From positions 248,001 through 312,000 of the forward strand of contig NZ_CANMDS010000005.1 in NCBI RefSeq assembly GCF_947496725.1: a DNA stretch of 64,000 nucleotides, read 5' to 3'. Source of the DNA: an uncultured Dokdonia sp. (GTDB lineage: Bacteria > Bacteroidota > Bacteroidia > Flavobacteriales > Flavobacteriaceae). The notes below the pieces were generated by a model. It did no database searches. It worked only from the letters and a program-made list of their open reading frames with translations, and was not told the origin of the DNA. Position 1 is the stretch's first letter. Each line of letters begins with the position of its first letter. Below, piece after piece: positions 2,613 to 61,177 of the stretch. The position numbers and the translations under genes are program-made.

Positions 2613-2626
2613 GCTTTCGCGAAAGC
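2613..2626. repeat. Palindromic repeat copy 1 (intergenic)
   Basis: Exact GCTTTCGCGAAAGC, ten bases after the sprA stop, in the sprA-gcvH gap. A decayed relative (ATTTTCGCGTAAGC, three mismatches) follows at 2667-2680. Confidence 0.95.
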
Positions 2627-2712
2627 TAGATGCTATAGAATATATATTTAATAAAAGATTATAATTATTTTCGCGTAAGCATACTTTAAACATATAATTA
2701 ATACCACCAAAA

Positions 2713-3093
2713 ATGAATATACCAGCAGAGTTAAAATACACAAAAGACCACGAGTGGATCCGTATAGAAGGAGATCTAGCCGTAGTAGGAATCACAGATT
2801 TTGCTCAAGGTGAGCTAGGAGACATCGTTTACGTTGAGGTAGAAACTCTTGACGAGACATTAGAAAAAGATGAGGTCTTTGGAACAGTAGAAGCTGTAAA
2901 AACAGTTTCTGATCTTTTCTTACCACTTTCTGGAGAGATAGTAGCTTTTAATGAAGGTCTTGAAGATGAGCCAGAAACGGTAAACAGTGATGCATATGGA
3001 GCTGGCTGGATGATAAAAATTAAGTTTTCTGACGCTTCAGAAATAGAAGAGCTTTTAAGTGCAGAAGCATATGGAGAGCTCATCGGTGGGTAA
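2713..3093 (+). CDS. gcvH: Glycine cleavage system H protein
   Basis: Lipoyl carrier of the glycine cleavage complex. It shuttles the methylamine group from the P protein to the T and L proteins. The protein has 126 residues, the normal length for the family. The start fits the conserved opening YTKDHEWI. The lipoylated lysine is K63 in VEAVKTVSD, within the typical GxVExVK context. It lies between sprA and a VanZ-like gene that overlaps its 3' end, so the two downstream genes are probably cotranscribed. Confidence 0.96.
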
Positions 3094-3481
3094 AATCATA
3101 GGAGTTGTTGCTACTCTTTATACGATACTATTAACTATAGGCTCACTTATTAAGCCTGTGGATGTAGTTCCTAAAGTAACTAACATAGATAAGCTCCTGC
3201 ACGCAGGAGCTTATTTTGGTCTTGCCGTACTCTGGTTATTGTTTTACTTTATGTATAAGAAGATAACAGTAAAAAAGAGTGCACACCTTAAGATCTATCT
3301 CATTATCGCTTTAATTTTAATAGGTTACGGCATAGTGATTGAGGTAATGCAAGGAAGCTTAACCGCATATAGACAGCCAGATGGCTGGGATGTGCTTGCA
3401 AATACAATAGGTGTCCTTTGTGGATGTTTATGCTTTGCTTTGTTTTTTAAGAAATTTAAAGCGTTAAATACGCTATATTAA
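3071..3481 (+). CDS. VanZ-like family membrane protein
   Basis: Small integral membrane protein of about 136 residues with roughly four hydrophobic segments. The motif set [13 protein letters not shown], then VIEVMQG, then a [15 protein letters not shown] segment ([14 protein letters not shown]), is the signature of the VanZ-like family, whose function is mostly unknown outside teicoplanin resistance. I chose the ATG at 3071, which overlaps gcvH by 23 bases. An in-frame GTG at 3059 gives a slightly longer form and a GTG at 3086 a shorter one. No sign of a link to antibiotic resistance here. Confidence 0.8.
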
Positions 3482-3535
3482 TTTCTATAGTGATAATAAT
3501 TTTGCTATTTTAGCTATCTACTTAACACATTAATT

Positions 3536-4264: not shown

Positions 4265-4285
4265 TCTATACGTCTTAATTTATAT

Positions 4286-4319
4286 AAAAACTGCCTCAGC
4301 GATGAGGCAGTTTTTTTTT
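4286..4319 (+). terminator. Rho-independent terminator after first tonB gene
   Basis: Stem of 13 bases (4286-4298 with 4303-4315), loop GCGA, followed by a run of T. A second imperfect hairpin (4331-4340 with 4345-4354, one mismatch) follows and may back it up or lie in the leader of the next gene. Confidence 0.88.
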
Positions 4320-4415
4320 GTGTAAAAAAAAGAGACCACCGCTAGGTGATCTCTTAGTTTGGCTTGCTTCTTGATTCGTTTTAAGAATTGTTCAACATTT
4401 TTAAAACCATATCCT

Positions 4416-5207: not shown

Positions 5208-5227
5208 ATGAATTAATTTACGTTAAG

Positions 5228-5257
5228 AATCCCGTTACCTAAGGTGGCGGGATTTTT
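5228..5257 (+). terminator. Rho-independent terminator after second tonB gene
   Basis: Outer stem AATCCCG (5228-5234) with CGGGATT (5248-5254), extended inward by G-U pairs to a TAA loop, followed by a T run. Confidence 0.85.
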
Positions 5258-5302
5258 TGTGCAATAAACCCTATCTTTCGGCTGCAAACATCACGGCTTA
5301 TT

Positions 5303-7426
5303 ATGCATAAATACCTCTTTCTTTTTGTCTCTTTTATAGCAACTTCTATAACAGCTCAGGTTACGACTAGTGATTTTGAAAAATATCCTGTTTTTCCAGG
5401 CTGTGAGACTATGGATATCGCACAACTGCAAGATTGTTTTAATGAGAAGTTTATTGCGCATATACTTGACAATTTTGAGGTGCCAGCTGTGGTGAGTCAA
5501 GATAACTTTCAAGGTAAAATGGTCATCCTTTTTGAGGTTACTAAAACAGGTGATTTTAAGCTGCTTTATACAGATGCGATGTATCCAGAGCTTAAAACCG
5601 CTGCTCAGGATGTTTTTAAGACGCTGCCTCAAGTTGCGCCGGCTACCTATAATGGAGAGCCTACGTACCTGCAGTTTACAATGCCCGTTTTATTACCACT
5701 AGATAGAAATGCTGTAGATGCGATGATCGTGGGAGACGATGGTAATTCCGCTTTCGCGAAAGCGGAAAAAGAAACCTTAAATCCTATGCAGCAAGAGTAT
5801 GACCGCATTAAAAATCTCAAGTTTGATGATGAGAATGAATACACGAGTGGGCTAAATATCCCTTTCTCACATCAAGTATATAGTAGGTTTGACCAAGAGC
5901 TTAATCTTGTGGGGACAAATGCACATACGGCAAGCAAGCCTTTTTTATATAACAGGGTAAACCCATATTATAATTTTAAAGAGAAGAAAGATGCACTGCT
6001 CAAGGAGAAGTCTACGTGGTTTGGTAGAAAGTGGTCTAACGAGCATATGGTGCAAATACAAGGTGAAGATTACTGGATCACTCTAGATCCTGCAGCAGAT
6101 TTGCAACTAGGTTATGAAACCGATGATGCAAAAATTAATGACTTTACATATAACAATACCAGAGCTGTTTATCTGCAAGGAGGGCTTGGTAAGAAGATAA
6201 ACTTCTTTGCAGCAGTGTATGAGAGTCAAGGACGCTTCCCAAGATATTTTGACGCCATAGCTAGGTCATTGCGACCAGATGGAGGAAACCCAGCTGTTAT
6301 ACCGGGAAGAGGCATTGCAAAGGAGGGTACAAATGGAGACCTTGATTATCCGGTTGCAGAGGGATATGTGTCATACACACCGTCTAAGTATTTTAATATA
6401 CAGCTAGGGCACGGTAAGCAATTTATAGGAGATGGGTATAGATCATTGTTACTTAGTGATAATGCCAGTTACTTTCCTTACTTAAAACTCAATACTACAT
6501 TCTGGAAGTTTAAGTATACAAATACTTGGACCTCGCTGCGTGACGTGCGACCAGAGGTGACTGCAGATGGTGCTTTCCGCACAAAGTATATGAGCAATCA
6601 CTATCTAAGCTGGAATGTCTCAAAACGATTAAACGTAGGTCTCTTTGAGTCTGTAATATGGGAAAATGAAAATGGTAGAGGTTTTGATTTTAATTTCTTA
6701 AACCCAGTAATTTTTTACAGAGCCATTGAGTTTTCTACAGGATCAAGAGGAGGAAATGCACTTATAGGTCTTACAGGTAAATACAAGGTAAATGACCGAG
6801 TAAACGTGTACGGGCAGATTGTAATTGACGAATTTTCGGCGGGAGATGTTTTTAATGGTAGCCAGAGTTATAAAAATAAACAAGGTTTTCAGCTAGGGGC
6901 AAAGTATTATGACGCCTTTGGAATTAAAAATCTTACACTACAAGGTGAGTATAATCAAGTGAGACCATATGTGTACTCTAATAATGAGATACAGCTCAAT
7001 TATGGTCACACTAACCAGTCACTAGCACATCAATGGGGAGCAAACTTTAAGGAGCTCATAGGTATTGCTAGATATGAGCGTGATCGCTGGTATGGAACTG
7101 CAAAGCTCATTGTAGGTGCTCGTGGAGTTGAGATAGGTGATATAAACGAGGTGTATTATGGAGGTAGCATTTATGGTAATGATGAGAATAGACCCTCAGA
7201 TAACGGGATTGCATTTTTTCAAGGTAATAAAGTAACTAGTGTGTATGGTGATCTGGAGCTAGGGTATCTCATAAACCCCGCTACAAATTTAAAAGTATAT
7301 GTAAACCCAATATATCGCTCTCAAACGGCAGATGTTCAAGAAGCGTCACTTGGGATTGACACTAAAACACTATGGTTTAATGTAGGTTTTAGAACAGATC
7401 TCTTTAACTGGTATTACGATTACTAG
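5303..7426 (+). CDS. RemB-like gliding/outer-membrane protein with N-terminal TonB-type domain
   Basis: Secreted outer-membrane protein of 707 residues. A signal peptide ends near ITAQ (residue 19). Residues about 25-135 repeat the C-terminal domain of the two upstream TonB proteins (YPVFPGCE, DCFNEK, VTKTGDFK, LPQVAPATYNG). The rest is a strand-rich domain of the Wzi-like/RemB type (WSNEHMVQIQGEDYW, PSKYFNIQLGHGKQFIGDGYRS). RemB is a mobile cell-surface gliding protein in Flavobacterium. A palindromic repeat at 5750-5763 is read as AFAKA in the linker right after the first domain. I am fairly sure of the barrel family, less so of the gliding role. Confidence 0.78.
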   Translation: MHKYLFLFVSFIATSITAQVTTSDFEKYPVFPGCETMDIAQLQDCFNEKFIAHILDNFEVPAVVSQDNFQGKMVILFEVTKTGDFKLLYTDAMYPELKTAAQDVFKTLPQVAPATYNGEPTYLQFTMPVLLPLDRNAVDAMIVGDDGNSAFAKAEKETLNPMQQEYDRIKNLKFDDENEYTSGLNIPFSHQVYSRFDQELNLVGTNAHTASKPFLYNRVNPYYNFKEKKDALLKEKSTWFGRKWSNEHMVQIQGEDYWITLDPAADLQLGYETDDAKINDFTYNNTRAVYLQGGLGKKINFFAAVYESQGRFPRYFDAIARSLRPDGGNPAVIPGRGIAKEGTNGDLDYPVAEGYVSYTPSKYFNIQLGHGKQFIGDGYRSLLLSDNASYFPYLKLNTTFWKFKYTNTWTSLRDVRPEVTADGAFRTKYMSNHYLSWNVSKRLNVGLFESVIWENENGRGFDFNFLNPVIFYRAIEFSTGSRGGNALIGLTGKYKVNDRVNVYGQIVIDEFSAGDVFNGSQSYKNKQGFQLGAKYYDAFGIKNLTLQGEYNQVRPYVYSNNEIQLNYGHTNQSLAHQWGANFKELIGIARYERDRWYGTAKLIVGARGVEIGDINEVYYGGSIYGNDENRPSDNGIAFFQGNKVTSVYGDLELGYLINPATNLKVYVNPIYRSQTADVQEASLGIDTKTLWFNVGFRTDLFNWYYDY
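5750..5763. repeat. Palindromic repeat copy 2 (in CDS, AFAKA frame)
   Basis: Exact 14-mer; the palindrome extends to 22 bases here (5746-5767, TTCC...GGAA). It falls in the interdomain linker of the RemB-like protein. Confidence 0.95.
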
Positions 7427-7928: not shown

Positions 7929-7930
7929 TC

Positions 7931-9239: not shown

Positions 9240-9253
9240 GCTTTCGCGAAAGC
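9240..9253. repeat. Palindromic repeat copy 3 (intergenic)
   Basis: Exact 14-mer within CGCTTTCGCGAAAGCG. It lies in the divergent gap between the MBL hydrolase and ctaB, 45 bases upstream of the -33 element proposed for ctaB. Confidence 0.95.
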
Positions 9254-10849: not shown

Positions 10850-10863
10850 GCTTTCGCGAAAGC
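10850..10863. repeat. Palindromic repeat copy 4 (intergenic)
   Basis: Exact 14-mer, extending to the 18-base palindrome ACGCTTTCGCGAAAGCGT (10848-10865), between the two subunit III genes and upstream of the second gene's promoter. Confidence 0.95.
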
Positions 10864-12402: not shown

Positions 12403-12416
12403 GCTTTCGCGAAAGC
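12403..12416. repeat. Palindromic repeat copy 5 (intergenic)
   Basis: Exact 14-mer, 13 bases downstream of the terminator's T run, so outside the transcript of either neighbour's coding region. Confidence 0.95.
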
Positions 12417-14467: not shown

Positions 14468-14737
14468 ATGAAATATATTAAGTACATCACTATTGTAATT
14501 GTTTTTTGTTGCGCTTTCGCGAAAGCGGACTTACACGCAACCACCACTGCCGCAACCACACAGTGTGCAATGTGTCGCGCCGTTCTTGAGTCTGAAGAAG
14601 ATAATAGTACTGCAAAGGGAATAAACAATGGTATCAAGTATCTAATGGTGATACCGTACATCTTAGTAGGAGGCGTATTTTACTTTATTTATAAGTCAAA
14701 AAAGAAGGTCCCTGCCGAGAATGGGGAAGATGAATAA
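14468..14737 (+). CDS. Small CxxC membrane protein of oxidase cluster (unknown)
   Basis: Protein of 89 residues: N-terminal signal-like segment (1-20), a short extracytoplasmic part with TQCAMCRAVLES (CxxC at 33-36), one membrane helix (about 57-75) and a basic then acidic tail. CxxC plus location suggest a metal or thiol role in oxidase biogenesis, but I do not recognise a named family. A palindromic repeat encodes AFAKA at residues 16-20, so that the putative signal peptidase site reads AKA before D21. Confidence 0.72.
   Translation: MKYIKYITIVIVFCCAFAKADLHATTTAATTQCAMCRAVLESEEDNSTAKGINNGIKYLMVIPYILVGGVFYFIYKSKKKVPAENGEDE
14513..14526. repeat. Palindromic repeat copy 6 (in CDS, AFAKA frame)
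   Basis: Exact 14-mer inside the signal-peptide coding region of the 89-residue CxxC protein. Confidence 0.95.
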
Positions 14738-17395: not shown

Positions 17396-17409
17396 GCTTT
17401 CGCGAAAGC
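17396..17409. repeat. Palindromic repeat copy 7 (intergenic)
   Basis: Exact 14-mer (18-base palindrome 17394-17411) placed between two facing terminators of convergent genes. Confidence 0.95.
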
Positions 17410-22374: not shown

Positions 22375-22388
22375 GCTTTCGCGAAAGC
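22375..22388. repeat. Palindromic repeat copy 8 (intergenic in operon)
   Basis: Exact 14-mer in the 44-base gap between the two permease genes, ending 14 bases before the second ATG; it would be in the transcript and near the ribosome binding region. Confidence 0.95.
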
Positions 22389-24889: not shown

Positions 24890-24903
24890 GCTTTCGCGAA
24901 AGC
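24890..24903. repeat. Palindromic repeat copy 9 (intergenic)
   Basis: Exact 14-mer (18-base palindrome 24888-24905) between the first adaptor gene and the TolC gene. Confidence 0.95.
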
Positions 24904-27735: not shown

Positions 27736-28413
27736 ATGACACACATATTATGTCTAGAGACAGCCACCACAAATTGTTCGGTGGCTTTGTCTATTAACGG
27801 AGAAGTCGTGATGATGCAGGAGGATAATGCAAAAAAGTATTCTCACGCAGAGCGCCTGCACACTTTTATAAAAGAAGTTTTAGATAAAGCAGGTGTTGCT
27901 CAAGAAAAATTAGATGCCATAGCGGTAAGTAAAGGTCCAGGGAGTTATACGGGACTGCGCATAGGAGTTTCGGCGGCAAAAGGTCTCTGTGCTGCGCTAG
28001 ACATACCCTTAATTGCTGTAGAGACGCTTAGGTCGCTTTCGCGAAAGCAAAATCTTACTCATAATGAGCTTGTGGTACCTATGCTAGACGCGAGGCGTAT
28101 GGAAGTGTATAGCGCTATTTATGATAGTGAGGGCAATGTTATAAGAGGTACAGAAGCACAAATACTAGATGAAACCTCATTTACCGAATATTTAGATAAG
28201 AGTATTGTACATTTTATAGGTAATGGAGTTGAAAAATTTCAAGAAGTATGTACACACCCTAATGCGAGATTTGTAACTAATGAATTGCCTAGCGCTGCGC
28301 AAATGGCAGCGATTTCAAACCAAAAGTTTCAAGAAGGATTATTTGAAGATGTAGCTTATTTTGAACCTTATTACCTTAAAGATTTTATTGCTGGTAAGCC
28401 TAAGAAAAAATAA
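27736..28413 (+). CDS. tsaB: tRNA threonylcarbamoyladenosine biosynthesis protein TsaB
   Basis: ASKHA-fold protein of 225 residues that partners TsaD and TsaE in making the t6A modification of ANN-decoding tRNAs. Typical motifs are ILCLETATTNCSVAL at the start, VSKGPGSYTGLRIGVSAAKGL in the middle and PMLDARRMEVYSAIY. A palindromic repeat at 28035-28048 is read as LSRK within ETLRSLSRKQN, a surface loop region before the PMLDARR strand. It follows the efflux operon with a four-base gap, so may be cotranscribed. Confidence 0.93.
   Translation: MTHILCLETATTNCSVALSINGEVVMMQEDNAKKYSHAERLHTFIKEVLDKAGVAQEKLDAIAVSKGPGSYTGLRIGVSAAKGLCAALDIPLIAVETLRSLSRKQNLTHNELVVPMLDARRMEVYSAIYDSEGNVIRGTEAQILDETSFTEYLDKSIVHFIGNGVEKFQEVCTHPNARFVTNELPSAAQMAAISNQKFQEGLFEDVAYFEPYYLKDFIAGKPKKK
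28035..28048. repeat. Palindromic repeat copy 10 (in CDS, LSRK frame)
   Basis: Exact 14-mer within tsaB, read as S-L-S-R-K-Q. Confidence 0.95.
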
Positions 28414-32472: not shown

Positions 32473-32484
32473 AAGGTAAAAATA

Positions 32485-32516
32485 CAAACAAAAAAAGTCC
32501 CACTTTAGAGCGGGAC
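32485..32516 (-). terminator. Terminator of dodecin gene
   Basis: Stem 32497-32504 with 32509-32516 (one A-C mismatch), loop TTAG, and a left-hand A run giving a minus-strand T run; it separates dodecin from the downstream lipoprotein gene. Confidence 0.7.
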
Positions 32517-32943: not shown

Positions 32944-33774
32944 TTACCAACCTCCAGAAGCACCACCGCCGCCAAAGCCGCCACCGCCAAAACCTCCTCC
33001 GAAGCCACCGCCGCCTCCAAAGCTGCCGCCACCTCCAAAGGAACCGCCACCGCCGCCAAAACCGCCGCGCCCCATATTACTGAGTATAATAACGTCTAGT
33101 AGTGAGCCAGTTCTTCTAGTACCATTACCACCGTCACGACCACCACCACGGTGATTGTTACGACTTATGATAATCAATATGATGACAAAGAAGATAAACA
33201 TTAAGATAGGTTGTATGGGGAAATTACTATCCTCTGGTCGAGAGCCTGTAAAATTACCCTGCAACCCTTGAAAAATTGCATCTGTACCTTGGTCTAGACC
33301 TGCATAAAAATTACCCTGTTTAAATTGCGGAATCATTATGCGGTTTATGATTTGCTCTGCGTCACGATCTGAGATAATACCCTCAATACCATAGCCAGTA
33401 TTGATATCAATCTTTCGGTCGTCTTTTGCTAGGAGTATAAGAATCCCATTGTCTTCATCTGCCTGGCCTATTCCCCATTTTTGTCCCCATTTTGCACCTA
33501 GCATATCGAGACCTTCACCGTTTGATGATGAGATTACAGCAACTACAATTTGTGTTGAGGTGGTATCACTATACTTAATAAGTTTGCGTTCTAAAGCATT
33601 TTTTTGACCTTCAGAGAGTAAACCTATATAGTCATAAACAGCATCTGGATTTGCCGTGGTGGGTTTATCTGGTATTGTGTATTGTGCAACTGCCGTCATA
33701 CTCACAATACAGAGAAGAAGTGTGAGTACGCTTTCGCGAAAGCGGAATCCCATAAAAAATTCTTTTTCTAGCAT
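32944..33774 (-). CDS. TPM-domain membrane protein with Gly-rich tail
   Basis: Protein of 276 residues: N-terminal signal peptide (about 8-32), TPM domain (about 36-180, DYIGLLSEGQKNALERKLIKYSD, IVVAVISSSNG, LAKDDRKIDINTGYGIEG), one membrane helix (about 192-207) and a long Gly/Phe-rich tail ending GGGGASGGW. This layout is that of YgcG-type proteins, whose role is unclear. The ATG at 33774 overlaps the stop of the upstream gene (TAATG), but an internal ATG at residue 8 is also possible. A palindromic repeat encodes RFRES just before the hydrophobic core of the signal peptide. Confidence 0.87.
   Translation of the reverse strand: MLEKEFFMGFRFRESVLTLLLCIVSMTAVAQYTIPDKPTTANPDAVYDYIGLLSEGQKNALERKLIKYSDTTSTQIVVAVISSSNGEGLDMLGAKWGQKWGIGQADEDNGILILLAKDDRKIDINTGYGIEGIISDRDAEQIINRIMIPQFKQGNFYAGLDQGTDAIFQGLQGNFTGSRPEDSNFPIQPILMFIFFVIILIIISRNNHRGGGRDGGNGTRRTGSLLDVIILSNMGRGGFGGGGGSFGGGGSFGGGGGFGGGFGGGGFGGGGASGGW
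33730..33743. repeat. Palindromic repeat copy 12 (in CDS, RFRES frame)
   Basis: Exact 14-mer in the N-terminal region of the TPM protein, read on the minus strand as F-R-F-R-E-S. Confidence 0.95.
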
Positions 33775-36509: not shown

Positions 36510-36523
36510 GCTTTCGCGAAAGC
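36510..36523. repeat. Palindromic repeat copy 13 (intergenic)
   Basis: Exact 14-mer in the divergent gap between the M23 peptidase gene and alaS. Confidence 0.95.
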
Positions 36524-39195: not shown

Positions 39196-40139
39196 TGAAA
39201 CTACAGACCCAAATACCGCTAGAGCCTGCTGCTCGTCAATTTGGGTATGATCATAAATTATTGTTATTAGGTTCTTGCTTTGCGCAGAACATAGGTGACA
39301 AGCTAGCATATTATAAATTCCAAGCGGTTACAAATCCGTTTGGAATTATTTTTAATCCCGTCGCACTAGAACGGTTAGTAGCAGATGCTGTTGCAAATAA
39401 AACCTATACAGAAGCAGATGTTTTTGAACTAGACGGCGTCTGGAAATCTTTTTATGCCCATAGTGATAAAAACGCCCTTACAAGACTAGGAGCTGTGATA
39501 CACTTACAAGAGGCGCAGCAATTGCTCAGGCAACAGCTCATAGAGGCTTCTCATCTATTTGTCACACTAGGTACTGCTTGGGTTTATAAACATCTTGAAC
39601 GTGATGAGGTGGTGGCCAACTGTCACAAGGTTCCTCAACAAGCTTTTACTAAAAAACTCCTTTCTGTAACTGAAATTCAAGAAAGTCTGTCTCGTATTTG
39701 TGAGCTGGTAAAAACACTTAACCCACAAATTGAGATTGCCTTTACGGTGTCGCCAGTGCGCCATATTAAAGATGGTATAGTAGAAAATACCCGCAGCAAG
39801 TCACATTTACTTACAGCAGTTCATCAACTTGTAGATAGTCGTGAGGTGAGTTATTTTCCGGCTTATGAGATTGTGATGGATGAGTTGCGTGACTATCGCT
39901 TTTATGCAAGTGATATGGTTCACCCATCTGAGCAAGCTGTTATGTATGTATGGGAGCGTTTTGTAGAGGTGTACGCTTTCGCGAAAGCGCAACAAATAAT
40001 GAAAAAAGTAGCTCAAGTGCAACAAGGGTTGGCTCACAAACCTTTTAATGAAGACAGCGCTGCGCACCAGAAATTTATTACAGATCTTGCAAAAAAACAG
40101 CAAGCCCTAACTGAAGTCTATCCTTTTATGAACTTCTAG
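39195..40139 (+). CDS. GSCFA domain protein
   Basis: Protein of 314 residues with the family-defining motif LLLLGSCFAQNIG (GSCFA at 26-30), KFQAVTNPFGIIFNP, LFVTLGTAWVY, and VSPVRHIKDG, followed by YFPAYEIVMDELRDYRFYASDMVHPS. The motif order (Ser block, Asn, and DxVHPS) suggests an SGNH-like esterase or acyltransferase fold, which is inference. It is translationally coupled to alaS. A palindromic repeat encodes AFAKA near residue 261, in a helix after the active-site DMVHPS segment. Confidence 0.88.
   Translation: MKLQTQIPLEPAARQFGYDHKLLLLGSCFAQNIGDKLAYYKFQAVTNPFGIIFNPVALERLVADAVANKTYTEADVFELDGVWKSFYAHSDKNALTRLGAVIHLQEAQQLLRQQLIEASHLFVTLGTAWVYKHLERDEVVANCHKVPQQAFTKKLLSVTEIQESLSRICELVKTLNPQIEIAFTVSPVRHIKDGIVENTRSKSHLLTAVHQLVDSREVSYFPAYEIVMDELRDYRFYASDMVHPSEQAVMYVWERFVEVYAFAKAQQIMKKVAQVQQGLAHKPFNEDSAAHQKFITDLAKKQQALTEVYPFMNF
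39975..39988. repeat. Palindromic repeat copy 14 (in CDS, AFAKA frame)
   Basis: Exact 14-mer in the GSCFA gene, read V-Y-A-F-A-K-A-Q-Q. Confidence 0.95.
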
Positions 40140-42327: not shown

Positions 42328-42341
42328 GCTTTCGCGAAAGC
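42328..42341. repeat. Palindromic repeat copy 15 (intergenic)
   Basis: Exact 14-mer in the divergent gap upstream of the aromatic amino acid hydroxylase. Confidence 0.95.
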
Positions 42342-45073: not shown

Positions 45074-45087
45074 GCTTTCGCGAAAGC
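45074..45087. repeat. Palindromic repeat copy 16 (intergenic in operon)
   Basis: Exact 14-mer beginning at the base after the paaE stop codon and ending 21 bases before paaA. Confidence 0.95.
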
Positions 45088-47302: not shown

Positions 47303-47803
47303 TTGATATTAGAAACGCAAAACATACAACCGCATTTGATCTCAATACTTGAAGGAGTAAGCGATCCAGAGATTCCTGTGTTGTCTATTATGGATATGGG
47401 TGTGGTACGCGAGGCAATAGAGCAAGACGGTATTGTACGTGTAAAAATAACACCTACTTACTCCGGTTGCCCTGCAATGGATGTTATAGGAGATGATATT
47501 GTTTCCGCTTTCGCGAAAGCGGGAAAAACCGCAAAAATCCAGCTCGTACTCGCTCCGGCCTGGACCACAGACTGGATAACTCCACGTGGTAGAGAAGCGC
47601 TTGAAAAATACGGTATTGCAGCACCATTATCTCCAGAAGCAGATAAAGAAGCCTTGCTGGGAAATAAGAAGATAGTAAAATGTACCAACTGTGGCTCTAC
47701 AGAGACACATCTGGTCAGTCAGTTTGGGTCTACCGCCTGTAAAGCATTGTTTAAATGTGATACGTGCCAAGAACCTTTTGACTATTTTAAATGTTTAAAA
47801 TAA
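47303..47803 (+). CDS. paaD: 1,2-phenylacetyl-CoA epoxidase accessory protein PaaD
   Basis: Accessory protein of 166 residues for iron-sulfur or diiron maturation of the epoxidase. An N-terminal DUF59/MIP18 domain (LEGVSDPEIPVLSIMDMGVVR, KITPTYSGCPAMDVI) is followed by a C-terminal zinc-ribbon-like part with CTNCGSTET and FKCDTCQEPFDYFKC. The start is TTG at 47303; an in-frame stop lies just upstream, so no longer ATG start exists. A palindromic repeat is read as AFAKA at about residues 69-73, next to the conserved GDDIVS helix. Confidence 0.94.
   Translation: MILETQNIQPHLISILEGVSDPEIPVLSIMDMGVVREAIEQDGIVRVKITPTYSGCPAMDVIGDDIVSAFAKAGKTAKIQLVLAPAWTTDWITPRGREALEKYGIAAPLSPEADKEALLGNKKIVKCTNCGSTETHLVSQFGSTACKALFKCDTCQEPFDYFKCLK
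47507..47520. repeat. Palindromic repeat copy 17 (in CDS, AFAKA frame)
   Basis: Exact 14-mer in paaD; the surrounding TTTCC...GGAAA lets the palindrome extend further. Confidence 0.95.
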
Positions 47804-48703: not shown

Positions 48704-49888
48704 ATGATAAAAAACATAGGAATTATAGGCGCTGGTACAATGGGTTCTGGCATTGCTCAAGTAGCTGCAACTGCTGGTTGTGCTGTAAAACTCTTTGATG
48801 TAAATCAAGAGGCGCTTGATAAAGCAAAGGCAGCACTAGAAAAAGTACTAAAACGTCTTATAGAGAAGGGACGCATAGACGCCTCAGAAAAAGATAGAAT
48901 ACAAGCTAATATTACGTATGTTACTACGCTTAAAGAGTTAGCAAACGCAGATCTTACCATTGAAGCTATTGTAGAAAATCTTGAGGTCAAGAAAAAAGTA
49001 TTTCAAGAGTTAGAAACCTACGTTTCTGACACAGCGATAATAGCCTCAAACACCTCAAGTCTTTCTATCGCTTCTATTGCAGCATCATTGCAAAATCCAG
49101 AGCGTTGCATCGGGATTCACTTTTTTAATCCTGCGCCGTTAATGAAGCTTGTTGAGGTGATACCTGCGGTACAAACCGCACAAAACGTTTTAGACACTTG
49201 CGTTGCCGAAATTACACGTTGGAAAAAAGTTGTAGCCATCGCAAAAGATACTCCAGGGTTTATTGTAAACCGCGTTGCACGACCATTTTATGGGGAGGCG
49301 TTACGTATGTATGAAGAAGGTGTGGCAAATTTTGCAACCATAGATGCAGCTATGAAAAGTGTGGGAGGTTTCCGTATGGGACCTTTTGAGTTGATGGATT
49401 TTATAGGTAACGATGTAAATTATACGGTTACAGAAACCGTGTTTAATGCCTTTTATCAAGATCCAAGATACAAGCCGTCTTTTACCCAACAGCGATATAG
49501 CCAGGCGGGATATCTAGGTCGTAAATCGGGACGCGGTTATTATGATTATAAAAATGTGGAGGCAGATAACGCTTTCGCGAAAGCGTCATCACAAGCAGCA
49601 ATAGCTACTCAAGATAAGGAAGCAATTTTTGAGCGTATTCTAGTAATGCTTATTAACGAAGCAGCAGATGCCTTGTTCTGGAATGTAGCAAGTGCCGAAG
49701 ATATAGACAATGCGATGACTAAAGGGGTAAACTACCCAAAAGGGTTACTAGCCTGGGCAGATGAGAAAGGAATAAGCTGGTGTGTGCAAAAAATGGATGC
49801 TCTGTATGATGAGTATAGAGAAGATAGATACAGATGCAGCCCACTTTTAAGAAGGATGGAAAAAGAGGGAAAACAATTTTTTGCCTAA
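48704..49888 (+). CDS. paaH: 3-hydroxyacyl-CoA dehydrogenase, PaaH type
   Basis: NAD-dependent dehydrogenase of 394 residues for the 3-hydroxyadipyl-CoA step. Rossmann motif GAGTMGSG (about 7-14), catalytic His region GIHFFNPAPLMKLVEVI, helical domain with TPGFIVNRVARPFYGEALRM, and a second shorter C-terminal domain (KEAIFERILVMLINEAADAL). The ATG at 48704 is preferred to the TTG six bases upstream. A palindromic repeat encodes AFAKA at about residue 290, between the two C-terminal domains. Confidence 0.92.
   Translation: MIKNIGIIGAGTMGSGIAQVAATAGCAVKLFDVNQEALDKAKAALEKVLKRLIEKGRIDASEKDRIQANITYVTTLKELANADLTIEAIVENLEVKKKVFQELETYVSDTAIIASNTSSLSIASIAASLQNPERCIGIHFFNPAPLMKLVEVIPAVQTAQNVLDTCVAEITRWKKVVAIAKDTPGFIVNRVARPFYGEALRMYEEGVANFATIDAAMKSVGGFRMGPFELMDFIGNDVNYTVTETVFNAFYQDPRYKPSFTQQRYSQAGYLGRKSGRGYYDYKNVEADNAFAKASSQAAIATQDKEAIFERILVMLINEAADALFWNVASAEDIDNAMTKGVNYPKGLLAWADEKGISWCVQKMDALYDEYREDRYRCSPLLRRMEKEGKQFFA
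49571..49584. repeat. Palindromic repeat copy 18 (in CDS, AFAKA frame)
   Basis: Exact 14-mer in the interdomain linker of paaH, read D-N-A-F-A-K-A-S-S. Confidence 0.95.
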
Positions 49889-51617: not shown

Positions 51618-51631
51618 GCTTTCGCGAAAGC
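51618..51631. repeat. Palindromic repeat copy 19 (intergenic)
   Basis: Exact 14-mer in the 117-base gap between paaJ and paaZ. Confidence 0.95.
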
Positions 51632-51695: not shown

Positions 51696-54233
51696 ATGAT
51701 TTTAGAATCTTATATAAATGGCCATTGGGTAAAAGGTGATGACAGCAATACACGTAATATGTATGACGCCATCACTGGAGATATAATAGGTCTCACAAGT
51801 ACCGAAGGTTTAGATATTGCCAGTGCATTACAATTTGGACGTGATAATGGAAAGGCGTTACGAGATATGACCTTTCAGCAGCGTGGAAATATGATTAAAA
51901 AACTGGCGCTTTACCTTAACAAGCGCAAGGAACAGTTTTATGAGATTAGTTACAAAACCGGAGCAACAAGAGCAGATAGCTGGGTAGATATAGAAGGAGG
52001 TTTTGGAAACCTCTTTGCAAATGCTAGCTTGCGTAAGCTCTTTCCAGATCAAAGCTATGCTGTAGAAGGTGATGCAATAGATTTATCAAGAGGAGGGCGT
52101 TTTATGGCGCACCATATTTTGGTTCCTAAAAAAGGTGTTGCAGTTCATATTAACGCTTTTAACTTCCCTGTATGGGGTATGTTAGAAAAATGTGCTGTAA
52201 ACTGGATGGCAGGTATGCCAGCAGTCGTATTGCCAGCACCACAAACCGCATTCTTAACAGAGGCTGTTGTGAGAGAGATTATAAACAGCGGTATATTACC
52301 TAAGGGAGCTTTACAATTACTCTCAGGTCTTACAACATCTATACTAGATACCGTAAATAGTCAAGACGTGGTAACCTTTACTGGAAGCGCGCAAACTGGG
52401 AGAAAGTTAAAAGTACATCCTCGACTTACAGAAGAGAGTGTGCCTTTTACAATGGAGGCAGATAGTCTTAACGCATCAATACTTGGTCCAGACGCTGTAC
52501 CGGGTACACCAGAGTTTGCTATTTTTATTAAGGAGGTACGTAAAGAGATTACGTCTAAGTGTGGTCAAAAATGTACGGCAATACGCCGTGTGGTTGTACC
52601 AGAAAACTTGATGGAAGATGTGCAGATTGCTCTAGGCAAACAGCTAGAACGCACGGTTATAGGAGATCCAAAATTGCGCGAGGTGAGAATGGGAGCCCTC
52701 ATTAATAATGACCAGCGTGATGCTATAAAAACGCAAATTGCCAAAATAGCCCAAACAGCAGATATGGTGTATGGATCTACAGATACCATAGATGCGATGG
52801 GTGCAGACGGAGCAAAGGGTGCTTTTATGAGCCCTATTGTGATGCGTGAAAATAATCCGTTTAAAAATACGCAGGTGCACGAGATTGAAGCCTTTGGCCC
52901 TGTAACGACACTTATGCCATATAACGGTGTGGAGGAAGCTATAGAACTCGCCCAGATGGGTAAGGGGTCTCTTGTGAGTAGTGTGGTTACTGCAGATGAC
53001 GCTTTCGCGAAAGCGTACACCATAGAAGCAGCATCACACCACGGAAGAATATTAACACTTAACCGCGACAGTGCGCCACAAAGTACGGGTCACGGCTCAC
53101 CATTACCATTACTGGTACACGGAGGTCCAGGTCGTGCCGGCGGAGGTGAAGAGATGGGAGGAATACGAGGTATAAAACATTATATGCAGCGTTGTGCCGT
53201 GCAGGGAAGCCCTACAAGCCTTACGGAAATTACAGGTATCTACCAGCCTAATGGAGATTACAAGGAGGCAGAACAGCATCCTTTTGCATACCATTATGAA
53301 GATATTAAACCAGGGATGAGTTTAAAAACTCATAAGCGTACGATTACTGATAATGATATACAGAATTTTGCAAATCTTACCTGGGATCACTTTTATGCAC
53401 ATACGGATATTACAAGTTTAGACGGGAGTATATTTGAGAAAAGAACGGCACACGGTTACTTTATTATTTCGGCTGCTGCAGGATTGTTTGTGTACCCTAA
53501 CAAAGGTCCGGTGAGTGCAAACTATGGGCTTGAAGATATTCGTTTCTTGAGACCGTTATATCACAATGACACCATCTATGTGCGCCTTACCTGTAAGGAA
53601 AAGCGTGAGAGAGATGTGAGCGGTAGGGAACACCCTAGCGGTATTGTAAAATGGTATGTTGAGGTGTATGACGCAGAGCCAGTAGATTATGAAAATGGAA
53701 AGACAGATGAAGAGGCAGAGGCGCTAGTAGCAGTGGCGACCATCCTTACAATGGTAGAAAAGAAACAAACTACCTTTGTTGAAATGACAGAGAGTCGCAT
53801 TGATACTTGTCTCTCAAAACTTAATCAAGATACAAAGCCAGTCTGGGGAACAATGACGCCACAACAAATGGTAGAGCACCTTGAGTTAACCTACCGTATA
53901 GCCGCTGGTGAAATACAAGATTTTGAGGTGGCCACACCAGATAAAGTACTTGACAAGGTGGCTGCAACACTCTGGGATTATAATAAAATGCCTAGAGATT
54001 ATAACTTCCCGCTATATGAAGCAGGAATTCAACCGGCATTACAACACAAAGACCTAGATGAAGCAAAAAAAGCGATGCTAGACGCAAGAAAGGCATATCT
54101 AGATTTTTACAAGAAGAATAAAAAGGCAACGACTAACAATGCAGTCTTTGGCGAGCTTAATAAATATGAGTGGTACTTAATGGAGCGCAAGCACCTTAAT
54201 CACCACTTTGAACAATTTAACCTTATAGATTAA
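51696..54233 (+). CDS. paaZ: PaaZ bifunctional ring-opening enzyme with extra DUF1569-like domain
   Basis: Residues about 1-520 are an aldehyde dehydrogenase: Glu general base E254 in FTMEADSLN and nucleophile C293 in CGQKCTAI, with spacing as in characterised PaaZ. Residues about 530-690 are a MaoC hydratase domain (MSLKTHKRTITDNDIQNFANLTWDHFYAHTD), which opens the oxepin-CoA ring; the dehydrogenase oxidises the semialdehyde. From about 700 to 845 there is an added domain (GTMTPQQMVEHLELTY, then NKYEWYLMERKHLNHHFEQF) resembling DUF1569/DinB-like proteins. Usual PaaZ is about 680 residues, so this is a C-terminal fusion. A palindromic repeat gives AFAKA at 436-440. Confidence 0.92.
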   Translation: MILESYINGHWVKGDDSNTRNMYDAITGDIIGLTSTEGLDIASALQFGRDNGKALRDMTFQQRGNMIKKLALYLNKRKEQFYEISYKTGATRADSWVDIEGGFGNLFANASLRKLFPDQSYAVEGDAIDLSRGGRFMAHHILVPKKGVAVHINAFNFPVWGMLEKCAVNWMAGMPAVVLPAPQTAFLTEAVVREIINSGILPKGALQLLSGLTTSILDTVNSQDVVTFTGSAQTGRKLKVHPRLTEESVPFTMEADSLNASILGPDAVPGTPEFAIFIKEVRKEITSKCGQKCTAIRRVVVPENLMEDVQIALGKQLERTVIGDPKLREVRMGALINNDQRDAIKTQIAKIAQTADMVYGSTDTIDAMGADGAKGAFMSPIVMRENNPFKNTQVHEIEAFGPVTTLMPYNGVEEAIELAQMGKGSLVSSVVTADDAFAKAYTIEAASHHGRILTLNRDSAPQSTGHGSPLPLLVHGGPGRAGGGEEMGGIRGIKHYMQRCAVQGSPTSLTEITGIYQPNGDYKEAEQHPFAYHYEDIKPGMSLKTHKRTITDNDIQNFANLTWDHFYAHTDITSLDGSIFEKRTAHGYFIISAAAGLFVYPNKGPVSANYGLEDIRFLRPLYHNDTIYVRLTCKEKRERDVSGREHPSGIVKWYVEVYDAEPVDYENGKTDEEAEALVAVATILTMVEKKQTTFVEMTESRIDTCLSKLNQDTKPVWGTMTPQQMVEHLELTYRIAAGEIQDFEVATPDKVLDKVAATLWDYNKMPRDYNFPLYEAGIQPALQHKDLDEAKKAMLDARKAYLDFYKKNKKATTNNAVFGELNKYEWYLMERKHLNHHFEQFNLID
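53001..53014. repeat. Palindromic repeat copy 20 (in CDS, AFAKA frame)
   Basis: Exact 14-mer in the dehydrogenase domain of paaZ, read D-D-A-F-A-K-A-Y. Confidence 0.95.
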
Positions 54234-55436: not shown

Positions 55437-56036
55437 ATGGTCTATTCATTTAAAGGACACATTCCCGTGGTTCACGAGTCTAGTTTTGTGCATCCGCTGG
55501 CTGCGGTTACTGGTAATGTAATTATTGGTAAAAATTGCTACATAGGTCCTGGAGCAGCAATACGTGGTGATTGGGGTGAGATCATTCTTGAAGATGGTGT
55601 AAACGTACAAGAAAACTGTACTGTGCATATGTTTCCAGGTAAGAGTATACGCTTTCGCGAAAGCGCACATATAGGTCACGGAGCCGTCATACACGGAGCA
55701 AACTTAGGGCGTAACTGCTTGATAGGGATGAATAGCGTGATTATGGATGATGCCGTTATAGGTGATGAATGTATAGTAGGTGCAATGGCATTTGTAAAAG
55801 CCGAAAGTGTTTTTGAATCTCGCCAGCTCATCGTAGGAAATCCTGCAAAGGCTATTAAAGAGGTTACAGATCAAATGATAGCTTGGAAAACTGCAGGAAC
55901 AAGGTTATACCAGCAGTTACCAGCAGACTGTCACGAGAGTTTAAGAGAGGTGGAGCCTTTACGAGAGATACCCCTAGACAGATCAGAGCAAGAAGATTTT
56001 TATAAAACGCTGCAAGACTTTAGAAAAGAAAACTAA
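55437..56036 (+). CDS. paaY: Gamma-carbonic-anhydrase-like hexapeptide protein PaaY
   Basis: Left-handed beta-helix protein of 199 residues. Hexapeptide repeats run through about 20-140 (VIIGKNCYIGPGAAIRGDWGEI, NLGRNCLIGMNSVIMDDAVIGDECIVGA). Metal ligands of the gamma-carbonic anhydrase type are H64, H81 and H86. PaaY has been reported as a thioesterase acting with the phenylacetate pathway, and the end of the paa cluster is its usual place. A palindromic repeat is read as RFRES at residues 72-76, in the loop between ligand strands. Confidence 0.88.
   Translation: MVYSFKGHIPVVHESSFVHPLAAVTGNVIIGKNCYIGPGAAIRGDWGEIILEDGVNVQENCTVHMFPGKSIRFRESAHIGHGAVIHGANLGRNCLIGMNSVIMDDAVIGDECIVGAMAFVKAESVFESRQLIVGNPAKAIKEVTDQMIAWKTAGTRLYQQLPADCHESLREVEPLREIPLDRSEQEDFYKTLQDFRKEN
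55651..55664. repeat. Palindromic repeat copy 21 (in CDS, RFRES frame)
   Basis: Exact 14-mer in paaY, read I-R-F-R-E-S-A, in the loop preceding metal ligands H81 and H86. Confidence 0.95.
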
Positions 56037-56503: not shown

Positions 56504-56644
56504 AATAAATCACTTTATTTAGACTGTAAAGATGAGCTATTTAGAATAAAAAAACAATTAATAAGATAAGATAGTGTTTTATTCTATTATGAAAGTATAA
56601 AGTAGATTTTATAAATAAAATTAGCTTATTCTGTAGTAATTTGT

Positions 56645-57964: not shown

Positions 57965-58013
57965 AAACCAACCAGCACACCACTGCATAACGCGGCGGTA
58001 AAAACCTATTGCT

Positions 58014-59060
58014 ATGAAAATAGAAGTCACAAAAACAACAAATTCTAAACTAGCGAGTATAGATTTTGATAACATCCCACTAGGAAGAACCTTTACAGAT
58101 CATATGTTTATCTGTGATTATGAAGATGGTAAGTGGCAAAACCCCCGTGTAGAGCCTTTAGCAATGATACCTACACACCCAGCAGCAATGGCGCTTCATT
58201 ATGGTCAAGCAATTTTTGAAGGGATGAAGAGTACGCTTTCGCGAAAGCGAGAACCCCTACTTTTTAGACCATATGAAAATGCTGCCCGTCTTAACGCGAG
58301 TGCAGAGCGTATGGGGATGCCGGCATTTCCAGAAGATCTTTTTGTAGACGGTTTAAAAGCGCTAGTTAGTATGGAGCAAGACTGGATTCCGCCGGTAGAT
58401 GGTAGTGCATTATACTTAAGACCATTTATGTATGCAGATGAACCTTTTATAGGGATGCGCGCAGCCACTAGTTATAAGTTTATCATCATAGGCTCACCAG
58501 CAGGACCATTTTTTACAAAGCCTGTAAAGCTTTGGGCAGAAAAGCATTATATACGTGCTGCCAGTGGAGGAACTGGAGAGGCAAAAGCCGCAGGAAATTA
58601 TGCTGCCGCCATACGCCCTACAGAGATTGCAAAGTCTAAAGGGTATGATCAAGTGCTATGGCTAGATGCACAAGAGCACGCCTATATACAAGAGGTAGGT
58701 ACAATGAATATTTTCTTTAAAGTAGATGGCAACTTTATAACGCCTACGCTAGACGGGTCTGTGTTGCACGGTATCACTCGTAAAAGTGTGATAGATGTTT
58801 TAAAGCACAAAGGCTATACGGTTACAGAGCGTAAAATATCGATACAAGAAATAAAAGAAGCTGCAGCACAAGGAACGCTTGAAGAAGCTTTTGGTACAGG
58901 TACTGCAGTAGGTATTGCTCATATACAAGAAATAGGTTGGGGTGATGATGTAATACCTGTTTCTACAGAGTTCCCTGTAGGTAAGGCGGTAAATGATATG
59001 CTTAACGATATCAAAACAGGAGGCGAAGACCCTTTTAACTGGATGACACCGGTACTTTAA
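58014..59060 (+). CDS. ilvE: Branched-chain amino acid aminotransferase
   Basis: PLP enzyme of 348 residues of the class II BCAT group. Motifs include YGQAIFEGMKSTL, FRPYENAARLNASAERMGMP, the segment AASGGTGEAKAAGNYAAAI (PLP lysine region), LWLDAQEHAYIQEVGTMNIFF and LHGITRKSVI. It removes amino groups from Val, Leu and Ile to give keto-acids for the flanking E1/E2 genes. A palindromic repeat is read as LSRK in the loop STLSRKREPLLF, where family members are variable. Confidence 0.93.
   Translation: MKIEVTKTTNSKLASIDFDNIPLGRTFTDHMFICDYEDGKWQNPRVEPLAMIPTHPAAMALHYGQAIFEGMKSTLSRKREPLLFRPYENAARLNASAERMGMPAFPEDLFVDGLKALVSMEQDWIPPVDGSALYLRPFMYADEPFIGMRAATSYKFIIIGSPAGPFFTKPVKLWAEKHYIRAASGGTGEAKAAGNYAAAIRPTEIAKSKGYDQVLWLDAQEHAYIQEVGTMNIFFKVDGNFITPTLDGSVLHGITRKSVIDVLKHKGYTVTERKISIQEIKEAAAQGTLEEAFGTGTAVGIAHIQEIGWGDDVIPVSTEFPVGKAVNDMLNDIKTGGEDPFNWMTPVL
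58235..58248. repeat. Palindromic repeat copy 22 (in CDS, LSRK frame)
   Basis: Exact 14-mer in ilvE, read S-T-L-S-R-K-R-E, in a variable surface loop. Confidence 0.95.
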
Positions 59061-59095
59061 TAATAGTTTACTACAGCACATTAATACATTGTAAG

Positions 59096-61177
59096 ATGAA
59101 TAAGGAGGTATTAAAAAAAGCATTTCATAACGTAAGTACGGCGAAAGCACTCACAGAGTTATATGAAGAAAATTTTAAGGTGATATCAAAGTATGTACAC
59201 GCTACAAGCCGTGGTCACGAGGTGATACAAACCGCTATAGGGATGCAGTTGCAACCACAAGATTATGCTTTTCCTTACTACAGAGATGATAGTATGCTTC
59301 TTGCCATAGGGATGAAGCCTTATGAGTTAATGTTACAAGTGCTAGCAAAGAAGGATGATCCATTTTCGGCGGGGCGTACGTATTACTCGCACCCAAGTTT
59401 ACGAGATGATGATAAGCCTAAAATACCGCACCAGAGTAGTGCTACAGGTATGCAAGCCATACCAGCAACGGGTGTTGCAATGGGTTTTTATTATAAAGAA
59501 GGACTTTCTGAAAAGCTGTCGACTGCGCTCAATGAGACAGAAAGTGCAATTTCCAGCACAGAAGCACCTTTTGTAGTTTGCTCACTAGGAGATGCATCTG
59601 TGACTGAGGGTGAAATCGCCGAAGCCTTCCAGATGGCAGCGCTCAAGCAGTTACCTATCTTATATTTAGTACAAGATAACGGCTGGGACATCTCTGCAAA
59701 TGCTGCCGAGACCCGTGCTCAAAATGCATTTGAGTACGCACAAGGTTTTCACGGTCTTGAGGCAGTAACTATAGACGGGACAGATTTTGAAGAGAGTTAC
59801 ACGACGCTCGAGAAGGTCATTAAGACCATCAGGACAGAGCGTAGACCATTTTTAGTACACGCAAAAGTTCCCCTGCTTAATCACCATACCTCTGGCGTGC
59901 GTATGGAGTGGTACAGAGATGATTTAGAAGAGGCACAAAGCCGCGACCCGTATCCAAAAATGATTGAGCTACTACTCAATAATGGATTTGATAAAAAAGA
60001 GATTGAGGATATGACCGCTTTCGCGAAAGCGGAAGTCCAAAAAGATTTTGACAAAGCACAACAAGCCGAAGATCCCGTTCCAGCAGATTTATTTACACAC
60101 GACTTTGCTCCCACACCTATCACAGAAGAGCGTGGCGAGCGCTCTCCAAAGGATGGAGAAAAGGTAGTGATGGTAGACTGTGCATTGTTTGCCGTAGAGG
60201 AGCTTATGCGTAAACATCCAGAATGCTTGATGTATGGTCAAGATGTAGGAGGTAGACTGGGAGGTGTTTTTAGAGAAGCGGCGACACTTGCTCAAAAATT
60301 TGGTGATAATCGCGTTTTTAACACACCTATACAAGAAGCTTTTATCGTAGGGTCTACAGTAGGGATGAGCGCCGTAGGGCTTAAGCCTATCGTAGAAGTT
60401 CAATTTGCAGATTATATATGGCCAGGCCTTAATCAACTATTTACAGAGGTGTCTCGATCGTGTTACTTGAGTAATGGTAAATGGCCAGTCTCAATGATTT
60501 TGAGAGTACCTATAGGAGCTTATGGTTCTGGAGGGCCGTATCACTCATCTTCTGTTGAGAGTGTGGTGACTAATATACGTGGTCTTAAAATTGCATATCC
60601 TTCTAATGGAGCAGACCTTAAAGGACTTCTTAAGGCGGCTTACTATGATCCTAATCCAGTTGTGATTTTTGAGCACAAGGGGCTATACTGGTCTAAGGTA
60701 AAAGGAACACAAGGCGCTACATCTGTAATGCCAGATGAAGATTATGTACTTCCTTTTGGGAAAGCAAATGTGCTGCAAGAAATCTGGAAGCAAGAAGATG
60801 AAGAAACAATTTCTATCATCACTTACGGTATGGGTGTACACTGGGCTATGAATGCCAGTGCAGAATTAGGATTACAAGATAGCGTTGAGGTGGTAGATTT
60901 AAGAACATTACATCCACTAGATTATGAGACGGTATTTAAGTCTGTAAAAAAATGTGCCAAGTGTCTTGTTATAACAGAAGAGCCTTCTAATAATGGCTTT
61001 AGTAGAGGACTGCAAGGAAGTATACAAGAAGAATGTTTTCAATATCTAGATGCGCCAGTAATGCTCATAGGATCTGAAAATATGCCAGCAATACCGCTCA
61101 ATAGTGTGTTAGAACAAACGATGATACCAAGTACTGAGAAGGTAAAGAGAAAGATAGAAGAGTTAATTGCTTACTAG
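59096..61177 (+). CDS. Branched-chain 2-oxo acid dehydrogenase E1, alpha-beta fusion
   Basis: Thiamine-diphosphate enzyme of 693 residues that decarboxylates branched-chain keto-acids. The alpha part (about 1-320) has GDASVTEGEIAEAFQMAALKQ and LVQDNGWDIS (TPP-binding region); the beta part (about 345-693) has YGQDVGGRLGGVFREA, PIQEAFIVGSTVGMSAVGL and EVQFADYIWPGLNQL. Alpha and beta chains, usually separate, are joined in one polypeptide as in several Bacteroidota. The palindromic repeat at 60017-60030 is read AFAKA at about residues 308-312, in the alpha-beta connecting segment. E3 is not in the window. Confidence 0.9.
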   Translation: MNKEVLKKAFHNVSTAKALTELYEENFKVISKYVHATSRGHEVIQTAIGMQLQPQDYAFPYYRDDSMLLAIGMKPYELMLQVLAKKDDPFSAGRTYYSHPSLRDDDKPKIPHQSSATGMQAIPATGVAMGFYYKEGLSEKLSTALNETESAISSTEAPFVVCSLGDASVTEGEIAEAFQMAALKQLPILYLVQDNGWDISANAAETRAQNAFEYAQGFHGLEAVTIDGTDFEESYTTLEKVIKTIRTERRPFLVHAKVPLLNHHTSGVRMEWYRDDLEEAQSRDPYPKMIELLLNNGFDKKEIEDMTAFAKAEVQKDFDKAQQAEDPVPADLFTHDFAPTPITEERGERSPKDGEKVVMVDCALFAVEELMRKHPECLMYGQDVGGRLGGVFREAATLAQKFGDNRVFNTPIQEAFIVGSTVGMSAVGLKPIVEVQFADYIWPGLNQLFTEVSRSCYLSNGKWPVSMILRVPIGAYGSGGPYHSSSVESVVTNIRGLKIAYPSNGADLKGLLKAAYYDPNPVVIFEHKGLYWSKVKGTQGATSVMPDEDYVLPFGKANVLQEIWKQEDEETISIITYGMGVHWAMNASAELGLQDSVEVVDLRTLHPLDYETVFKSVKKCAKCLVITEEPSNNGFSRGLQGSIQEECFQYLDAPVMLIGSENMPAIPLNSVLEQTMIPSTEKVKRKIEELIAY
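60017..60030. repeat. Palindromic repeat copy 23 (in CDS, AFAKA frame)
   Basis: Exact 14-mer near the interdomain joint of the E1 fusion, read M-T-A-F-A-K-A-E. Confidence 0.95.

Follow-up and report, generated by a model that had tools for sequence, protein, structure and literature searches.

Only a few recognition codes are known to extend over whole genomes, and every one of them has revealed a basic process (transformation, recombination or segregation). The uptake sequences of Haemophilus occur about once per 1 kb with relatively even spacing and consist of a core with helpful AT-rich flanks, as described in passages of PMC7811141. A pasteurellacean uptake 10-mer is present in its genome in 438 exact and 947 one-mismatch copies, according to a section of PMC1939737. 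Highly iterated palindromes with matching methyltransferases also exist, and one-off copies of highly iterated palindrome 1 (HIP1) are common in many cyanobacteria (passages of PMC4390886). Here we characterize GCTTTCGCGAAAGC, a 14-bp perfect palindrome present in 23 exact copies in a 64-kb stretch of the genome of an uncultured Dokdonia sp. (positions 248,001 to 312,000 of contig NZ_CANMDS010000005.1, assembly GCF_947496725.1), hereafter called the window. We propose, with a probability of roughly 40%, that it is the recognition site of a putative homodimeric protein that acts inside the cell, most likely organising or marking the chromosome; DNA uptake comes second in our ranking and a two-way Chi-like signal third.

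The 23 copies lie exactly at the start positions listed in an earlier note made from the window sequence alone. Dinucleotide shuffling gave an expectation of 0.00 copies and a maximum of 0, consistent with the estimate of far less than one made there, and we likewise counted 17 copies in which the match extends to the 16-mer CGCTTTCGCGAAAGCG. The half-site of the palindrome is GCTTTCG, with TTAC usually just before it in Dokdonia. The whole genome (3.29 Mb in 121 contigs) contains 905 exact copies, against 0 of a reversed control. Thus, the counts are not composition-like, and the copies are not confined to the window, as relatives also carry hundreds of them. Together with the conservation and the over-even spacing described below, these numbers support the part of the earlier proposal that concerns a genome-wide, maintained site. 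The motif is also strict, since 464 kb harbour 143 exact copies, 5 copies with one mismatch and 14 with two.

Gaps between the window sites average 2609 bp with a coefficient of variation (CV) of 0.306, as the earlier note had calculated by hand (~2.6 kb and ~0.3). When 23 sites were placed uniformly 20,000 times, no draw reached this CV, the lowest value being 0.46. The window is more even than the genome average, and 400 kb of another contig of the same genome gave a CV of 0.50 versus a mean of 1.04 (lowest value, 0.77) for 5000 draws of a gene-context null, in which sites are randomly placed while the split between intergenic and coding DNA is preserved. This stretch has no gap shorter than 500 bp (null mean 19.9) and none longer than 9 kb (null mean 8.5). 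The sites are thus over-even rather than clustered when compared with a null that takes gene structure into account.

The palindromes are placed in tolerant DNA. Based on crude calling of open reading frames (ORFs) in the 464 kb, 63 of the 143 copies are intergenic, while intergenic DNA represents 9.5% of the sequence, and the 80 copies inside ORFs are read in all three frames, as AFAKA (46), LSRK (17) or RFRES (17). Several AFAKA-frame copies are found near ORF starts, in stretches that look by eye like signal peptides. The intergenic enrichment, as well as the location of 28 of 39 copies between co-directional genes closer to the upstream stop, would suit an intrinsic transcription terminator or an operator. 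Such a role appears very improbable, given the copies inside crude ORFs, the location of 13 of the 63 intergenic copies between divergent genes, and a downstream flank that is A-rich and G-poor and has no T run.

We compared the window's genome (G000) with that of a close relative (G016, complete genome) at 5.2% divergence. The alignment spans ~133 kb, namely the window itself and ~70 kb of an intended 400 kb, the remainder of which did not align because gene order differs. Of 50 site positions, 47 are common to both genomes and 3 differ by a single substitution each; all 23 window sites are exact in the relative. Substitutions affect 1 of 672 core positions versus 299 of 5575 background positions located 61-120 bp away, in counts that use sites taken from G000 and therefore slightly favour the core. 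The nearest four flank bases are substituted in 11 of 381 cases, and only the core and these four bases are slowed. In four Dokdonia at ~76% identity, the site is kept in 24 of 30 comparisons, substituted in 4 and interrupted by a small insert in 2, these comparisons representing the 11 of 23 window sites that could be aligned in at least one of the four. The sites are listed below by their coordinates in the window, with no strand assigned (G010, Dokdonia pacifica; G011, Dokdonia sinensis; G014, uncultured Dokdonia).

Site 1, 2613..2626: intergenic, 9 bp past the sprA stop
Site 2, 5750..5763: within ORF 5303-7426, frame AFAKA
Site 3, 9240..9253: intergenic, divergent genes
Site 4, 10850..10863: intergenic
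Site 5, 12403..12416: intergenic
Site 6, 14513..14526: intergenic
Site 7, 17396..17409: intergenic, convergent genes
Site 8, 22375..22388: intergenic
Site 9, 24890..24903: intergenic
Site 10, 28035..28048: within ORF 27736-28413, frame LSRK
Site 11, 31174..31187: within ORF 30355-32487 (minus strand), frame RFRES
Site 12, 33730..33743: near the start of ORF 32944-33774 (minus strand), frame RFRES; one mismatch in G010
Site 13, 36510..36523: intergenic, divergent genes, before alaS; retained in 4 of 4 alignable relatives including G016
Site 14, 39975..39988: within ORF 39195-40139, frame AFAKA; substituted in G013
Site 15, 42328..42341: intergenic, divergent genes
Site 16, 45074..45087: between paaE-like and paaA-like genes
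Site 17, 47507..47520: within ORF 47303-47803, frame AFAKA; one mismatch in G011
Site 18, 49571..49584: within a 3-hydroxyacyl-CoA dehydrogenase gene, frame AFAKA; in G013 a small insert breaks the palindrome
Site 19, 51618..51631: intergenic, before a paaZ-like gene
Site 20, 53001..53014: within the paaZ-like gene, frame AFAKA; retained in 5 of 5 aligned relatives including G016
Site 21, 55651..55664: within a paaY-like gene, frame RFRES; retained in 5 of 5 aligned relatives including G016
Site 22, 58235..58248: within ORF 58014-59060, frame LSRK; in G014 a small insert breaks the palindrome
Site 23, 60017..60030: within ORF 59096-61177, frame AFAKA; one mismatch in G013
One-mismatch copy GCTTTGGCGAAAGC, 62703..62716: exact site at this place in G016

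The gene content of the window is that of an ordinary Flavobacteriaceae-like chromosome, with genes for the C-terminal part of SprA (type IX secretion system), alanyl-tRNA synthetase, phenylacetate degradation and urocanate hydratase. Rfam and tRNA scans of the window gave no matches.

A small mobile or repetitive extragenic palindromic (REP)-like repeat copied into the genome would also be repeated and palindromic. This origin is largely refuted by the differences between the two close genomes, all three of which are single substitutions with no insertion footprint, by flanks that share composition and not sequence, and by the presence of copies in all three coding frames. Furthermore, there is no gap in the compared stretch in 19 of 24 coding comparisons between Dokdonia and Nonlabens, a second genus that carries the motif.

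In G010, G011, G013 and G014, small repeats break some palindromes immediately after GCTTTCGCGAAA. In four of these interruptions (one in G010, two in G014 and one in G013), AAAGC comes after an element of ~30-70 bp, which looks like a duplication of AAA; the remaining interrupted palindromes continue into repeats of other kinds. REP-like elements may use the palindrome as a landing site.

The counts in relatives proposed in the earlier note revealed 369-903 copies in all 17 Dokdonia congeners. The same draw included 18 genomes from the family's other genera: one Nonlabens (G027) has 578 copies, G029 has 6 and 16 have none. There are no copies in 23 of 23 genomes from elsewhere in the order. 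We also surveyed 397 genomes of the family, 80 of which harbour at least one copy. More than 100 copies were found in six, namely two Dokdonia, three Nonlabens (578-664 copies) and a member of a third genus (G230, 408 copies); 3 genomes have 16-19 copies and 71 have 1-9, with 0-9 copies in 388 overall. At the phylum level, at least one copy was found in 22 of 395 genomes, and none but the window's genome exceeds 6 copies. The 16-mer was found in at least 105 stretches of named genomes; among the matches listed, 90 belong to Dokdonia, Nonlabens or strain BBFL7, which we take to be a Nonlabens, and 15 to others. Judging from alanyl-tRNA synthetase similarity, i.e. one gene and no tree, the three motif-rich genera are not nearest neighbours: starting from Dokdonia, G230 comes in about 108th position, and the two Nonlabens searched are absent among the matches listed. 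A plasmid collection queried with alaS gave no match. In samples from 18 other genera of the family (four short masked stretches, one of 10 kb and the rest of 20 kb each), no abundant palindrome was found besides this motif, which is present in Nonlabens and in a G029 stretch chosen for it.

Of note, five genomes of motif-poor genera (G254, G118, G127, G141 and G200) have a few copies in one stretch, with one pair of copies exactly 933 bp apart. By eye, the G254 stretch is a resistance-nodulation-division (RND) efflux/TolC-like gene cluster, possibly acquired from a motif-rich genus.

Site positions mostly differ between genera. In comparisons from which pairs below 45% identity were dropped, and in which many loci had been chosen for carrying the motif, Dokdonia and Nonlabens share 2 positions and differ at 22, and G230 and Dokdonia share 1 and differ at 10. 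None is shared by G230 and Nonlabens and 3 are not, although two of these three, which overlap across a 6-base gap in the alignment, may represent one shared place. As positions mostly differ, we infer that the sites arose separately under one rule, and the economical reading is that of a single recognition rule, either transferred or very old, with sites rising separately in each genus. Tentatively, one may envision a horizontally spread marking system, in which a homodimeric protein with a fixed 14-bp specificity would have been acquired independently by the three genera, with hundreds of exact sites evolving in each. Such a system would have C-free 5' flanks in two of the three genera, and its sites would organise DNA or mark self versus foreign.

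The flanks have a marked base preference. At the 63 intergenic Dokdonia sites, C represents 0-10% of the bases at positions -2 to -13, except for a conserved C at -1, compared with ~19% in the genome and 11-21% farther out in these sites, at positions -26 to -40. An A is found at -2 in 77% of cases, and T at -3 and -4 in 85% and 70%, respectively. This avoidance of C on the 5' side of each strand, which leaves a G/T-rich flank, fades by about -25. It is also found in other Dokdonia (148 sites) and in Nonlabens (104 sites), with position -1 biased by selection because many of these loci were found using the 16-mer. The two flanks do not covary, indicating that the palindrome is not part of a longer hairpin. 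Their substitution rate is not clearly raised (112 of 1968 versus 687 of 12902), and C/T exchanges account for 12% of the changes versus 33% elsewhere, which argues for selection against C rather than for a mutational hotspot as the origin of the C-poor flanks. Flank periodicity is mainly of period 3, as coding sites would give, and we claim no helical phasing.

These G/T-rich flanks bear on the idea of a two-way Chi-like stop, in which the palindrome would halt a helicase-nuclease and load RecA from either side, thereby serving as a self mark. RecA favours G/T-rich DNA, and on both strands the G/T-rich stretch precedes the site on its 5' side, which is where RecA would be loaded onto a 3' tail; in addition, the site density is near that of Chi. 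Each strand of the site has GCGAAAGC as its 3' half; the window's plus strand has 25 copies of this sequence, 23 of them inside palindromes. This is the sequence of a DNA mini-hairpin termed extraordinarily stable in a title cited by PMC4686876, a section of which also states nuclease resistance for this class of mini-hairpins. Nevertheless, the predicted folding of the 14-mer (-2.1 kcal/mol) is no better than that of its shuffles, and for three 54-nt site contexts the z scores are -2.4 in one case and about 0 in two. Nucleases that are AddAB-like by size and adjacency are present, but PF12705 was over the profile cut-off in 30 of 30 genomes irrespective of the motif. An adjacent pair of ORFs of ~900 and 1060 codons, AddAB-like by size and order, was found in 25 of the 30 and was not seen in three Nonlabens, G019 and G272. 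Since known Chi sites are moreover short and not palindromic, we consider this explanation rather unlikely.

Other candidate readers were sought in the same way, using Pfam profile cut-offs on panels of 30 genomes. The methyltransferase survey comprised PF01555 and PF00145. No Dokdonia (0 of 11) was over the cut-off for PF01555; 1 of 3 Nonlabens and G230 were. For PF00145, 4 of 11 Dokdonia passed it, as did 2 of 3 Nonlabens; the latter family is absent from 7 of 11 Dokdonia, including the window's genome, and from G230. TCGCGA or CGCG might be the methylation core of a HIP1-type, methylation-linked iterated palindrome, but with neither family shared, one-off copies rare, and 14 strict positions exceeding usual methyltransferase sites, this proposal is improbable, and the methyltransferase role envisaged in the earlier note is disfavoured for the two main families.

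If the palindrome were a DNA uptake sequence, competent cells would prefer DNA that bears it, and biased recombination would accumulate sites. Its density, wide spread and even spacing resemble those of Haemophilus uptake sequences, and one motif in three genera at mostly different positions fits a transferred receptor with exchange of tagged DNA. The absence of sites from a large island is also consistent with uptake: the widest gap in a 400-kb stretch of G016 is 24.9 kb long, has 35% GC and no site, and contains genes that resemble, by eye, those for a recombinase, metal transport and restriction-modification. On the other hand, the PF00437 pilus/secretion ATPase was not over the cut-off in 8 of 9 motif-rich genomes (5 of 5 Dokdonia, 2 of 3 Nonlabens and the third genus); it was in 4 of 30 genomes, one of which, a Nonlabens, is motif-rich. 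An uptake receptor of the known pilus type, another role suggested earlier, is thereby disfavoured. The absence of PF00437 is not decisive, because Bacteroidota may take up DNA without such pili. Known uptake sequences are also not palindromes, and one-mismatch copies are rare here (5 versus 143 exact). According to a passage of PMC1939737, uptake sequences are less even than compaction sites should be, yet its author also cites significant even spacing.

A further point against uptake is the presence of sites on a phage contig, indicating that the palindrome is not confined to bacterial genes. In 23 of the 39.8 kb of the uncultivated virus genome (UViG) 2617271332 of IMG/VR, which has no host assigned, we found 3 copies, separated by 3.1 and 3.6 kb, one of them inside a head-maturation protease gene (PHROG 53), and no copy in the other 13.7 kb of the examined stretch. 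It is related to Cellulophaga phage Ingeline (43.5% in one protein). No copies were found in 42.6 kb of a related Cellulophaga phage, or in 35.7 kb each of two Nonlabens phages with no annotated integrase, the host strain of which may or may not carry the motif. At least 120 stretches of viral contigs match the motif; by our estimate, many single matches may be due to chance. The flanks of 21 viral loci, chosen mostly for having two or more copies per contig, are mostly of 35-42% GC. Under the horizontally spread marking system envisioned above, some phages would seem to have followed. Altogether, we consider uptake the main rival explanation, less likely than an intracellular reader.

As for ParB-type proteins, each of the 9 motif-rich genomes has one PF02195 match and no ParB paralogue. 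No altered ParB helix-turn-helix was found either, those of G016, G230, G281 and the Nonlabens metagenome-assembled genome G433 being, by eye, closely like those of motif-poor relatives. G023 has two copies of GTTCCACGTGGAAC, which resembles parS, in 20 kb, and no site of this type was found in 100 kb of G016 that include parB. A search for anomalously similar proteins among Dokdonia, Nonlabens and the third genus, performed with partial genomes and no negative set, singled out no cognate gene.

In light of these data, we favour an intracellular reader that organises or marks the chromosome. A homodimer that needs the site in a near all-or-none manner is suggested by its palindromy, strictness and maintenance, and palindromy without covariation of the flanks suits two identical half-site readers. 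The site densities of 0.25-0.36 per kb in seven stretches of G016 also speak for this reading. As known uptake sequences are non-palindromic, rich in one-mismatch copies and pilus-using, an intracellular reader is the more probable. A homodimeric, sequence-specific DNA-binding protein would read the palindrome with one half-site per monomer and would act in the cytoplasm across the whole chromosome. The array would provide about one docking site per 3.6 kb for organising or marking DNA, and the ~25 bp of C-avoiding, G/T-rich DNA 5' of each strand would help recognition. From palindromy, strictness and conservation we infer that a cognate protein exists, as the earlier note proposed, although no protein was identified; of the roles named there, a nucleoid protein or a repair factor may fit.

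Several observations weigh against this interpretation. No cognate protein was found among the candidate families of the 30-genome panels, none of which tracks the motif, and we know of no nucleoid protein with ~900 exact 14-bp sites. Over-even spacing, which is clear in the window's genome, is variable in relatives. The CV is 0.52 in Nonlabens G027 and 0.78 in G230, and it amounts to 0.86, 0.50, 0.41 and 0.90 in 80 kb each of four other Dokdonia with 12-21 sites. In G016, seven blocks have CVs of 0.32-0.81 and 5 of 227 gaps are shorter than 500 bp; the pooled CV of 0.69 is inflated because of the 25-kb stretch without sites. No pattern related to the replication origin or terminus, whose positions were not mapped, was seen in these seven stretches. 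Near copies, though few, are above chance, with 208 sequences within two mismatches genome-wide (1113 in total with the 905 exact copies) versus 13 for the reversed control. By comparison, G027 has 578 exact copies and 722 within two mismatches (control, 9), and the motif is looser in G230 (408, 732 and 48, respectively), where C avoidance in the flanks (34 sites) is also much weaker. Finally, a patchy distribution over three non-neighbour genera is odd for a core chromosome organiser and would be easier to explain for a transferable uptake or defence trait.

In agreement with the earlier note, which knew of no description, the 14-mer was not found in the open-access literature searched, in which the string TTTCGCGAAA does occur. 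As a strict code shared by three genera, the palindrome should make its reader findable by simple capture from culturable marine bacteria, and that reader would make chromosome organisation, competence or self-recognition in Bacteroidota accessible to direct tests. The site can already be used to trace DNA that has apparently left these genera.

The palindrome most resembles the uptake signal sequences (USS) and DNA uptake sequences (DUS) of Pasteurellaceae and Neisseriaceae, with hundreds to thousands of copies in and between genes, a wide and fairly even spread, a core with helpful flanks, and restriction to certain lineages. It is stricter than these, with 14 strict positions, mirror symmetry, few one-mismatch copies and no PF00437 over the cut-off in 8 of 9 motif-rich genomes, and it apparently originated on separate occasions in the three genera, each time under one rule. 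Like HIP1, it is an exact palindrome repeated through the genome and taxonomically patchy; HIP1 is 8 bp long, with common one-off copies and matching methyltransferases, while here we found 14 bp plus flanks, few one-off copies and no shared methyltransferase in the two families tested. It is akin to the sites of MatP (matS), SlmA (SBS) and Noc in being palindromic, of similar length and suited to a homodimer. Those sites number in the tens, compared with ~900 here, and unlike for matS and the SlmA sites no regional restriction was seen in seven G016 stretches, nor is there, as for Noc, a ParB/Noc paralogue in the nine genomes. With Chi, it has in common a frequency of one per few kb and a G/T-rich element on the 3'-ended strand, and it differs from Chi in being a strict, mirror-symmetric site of 14 bp.

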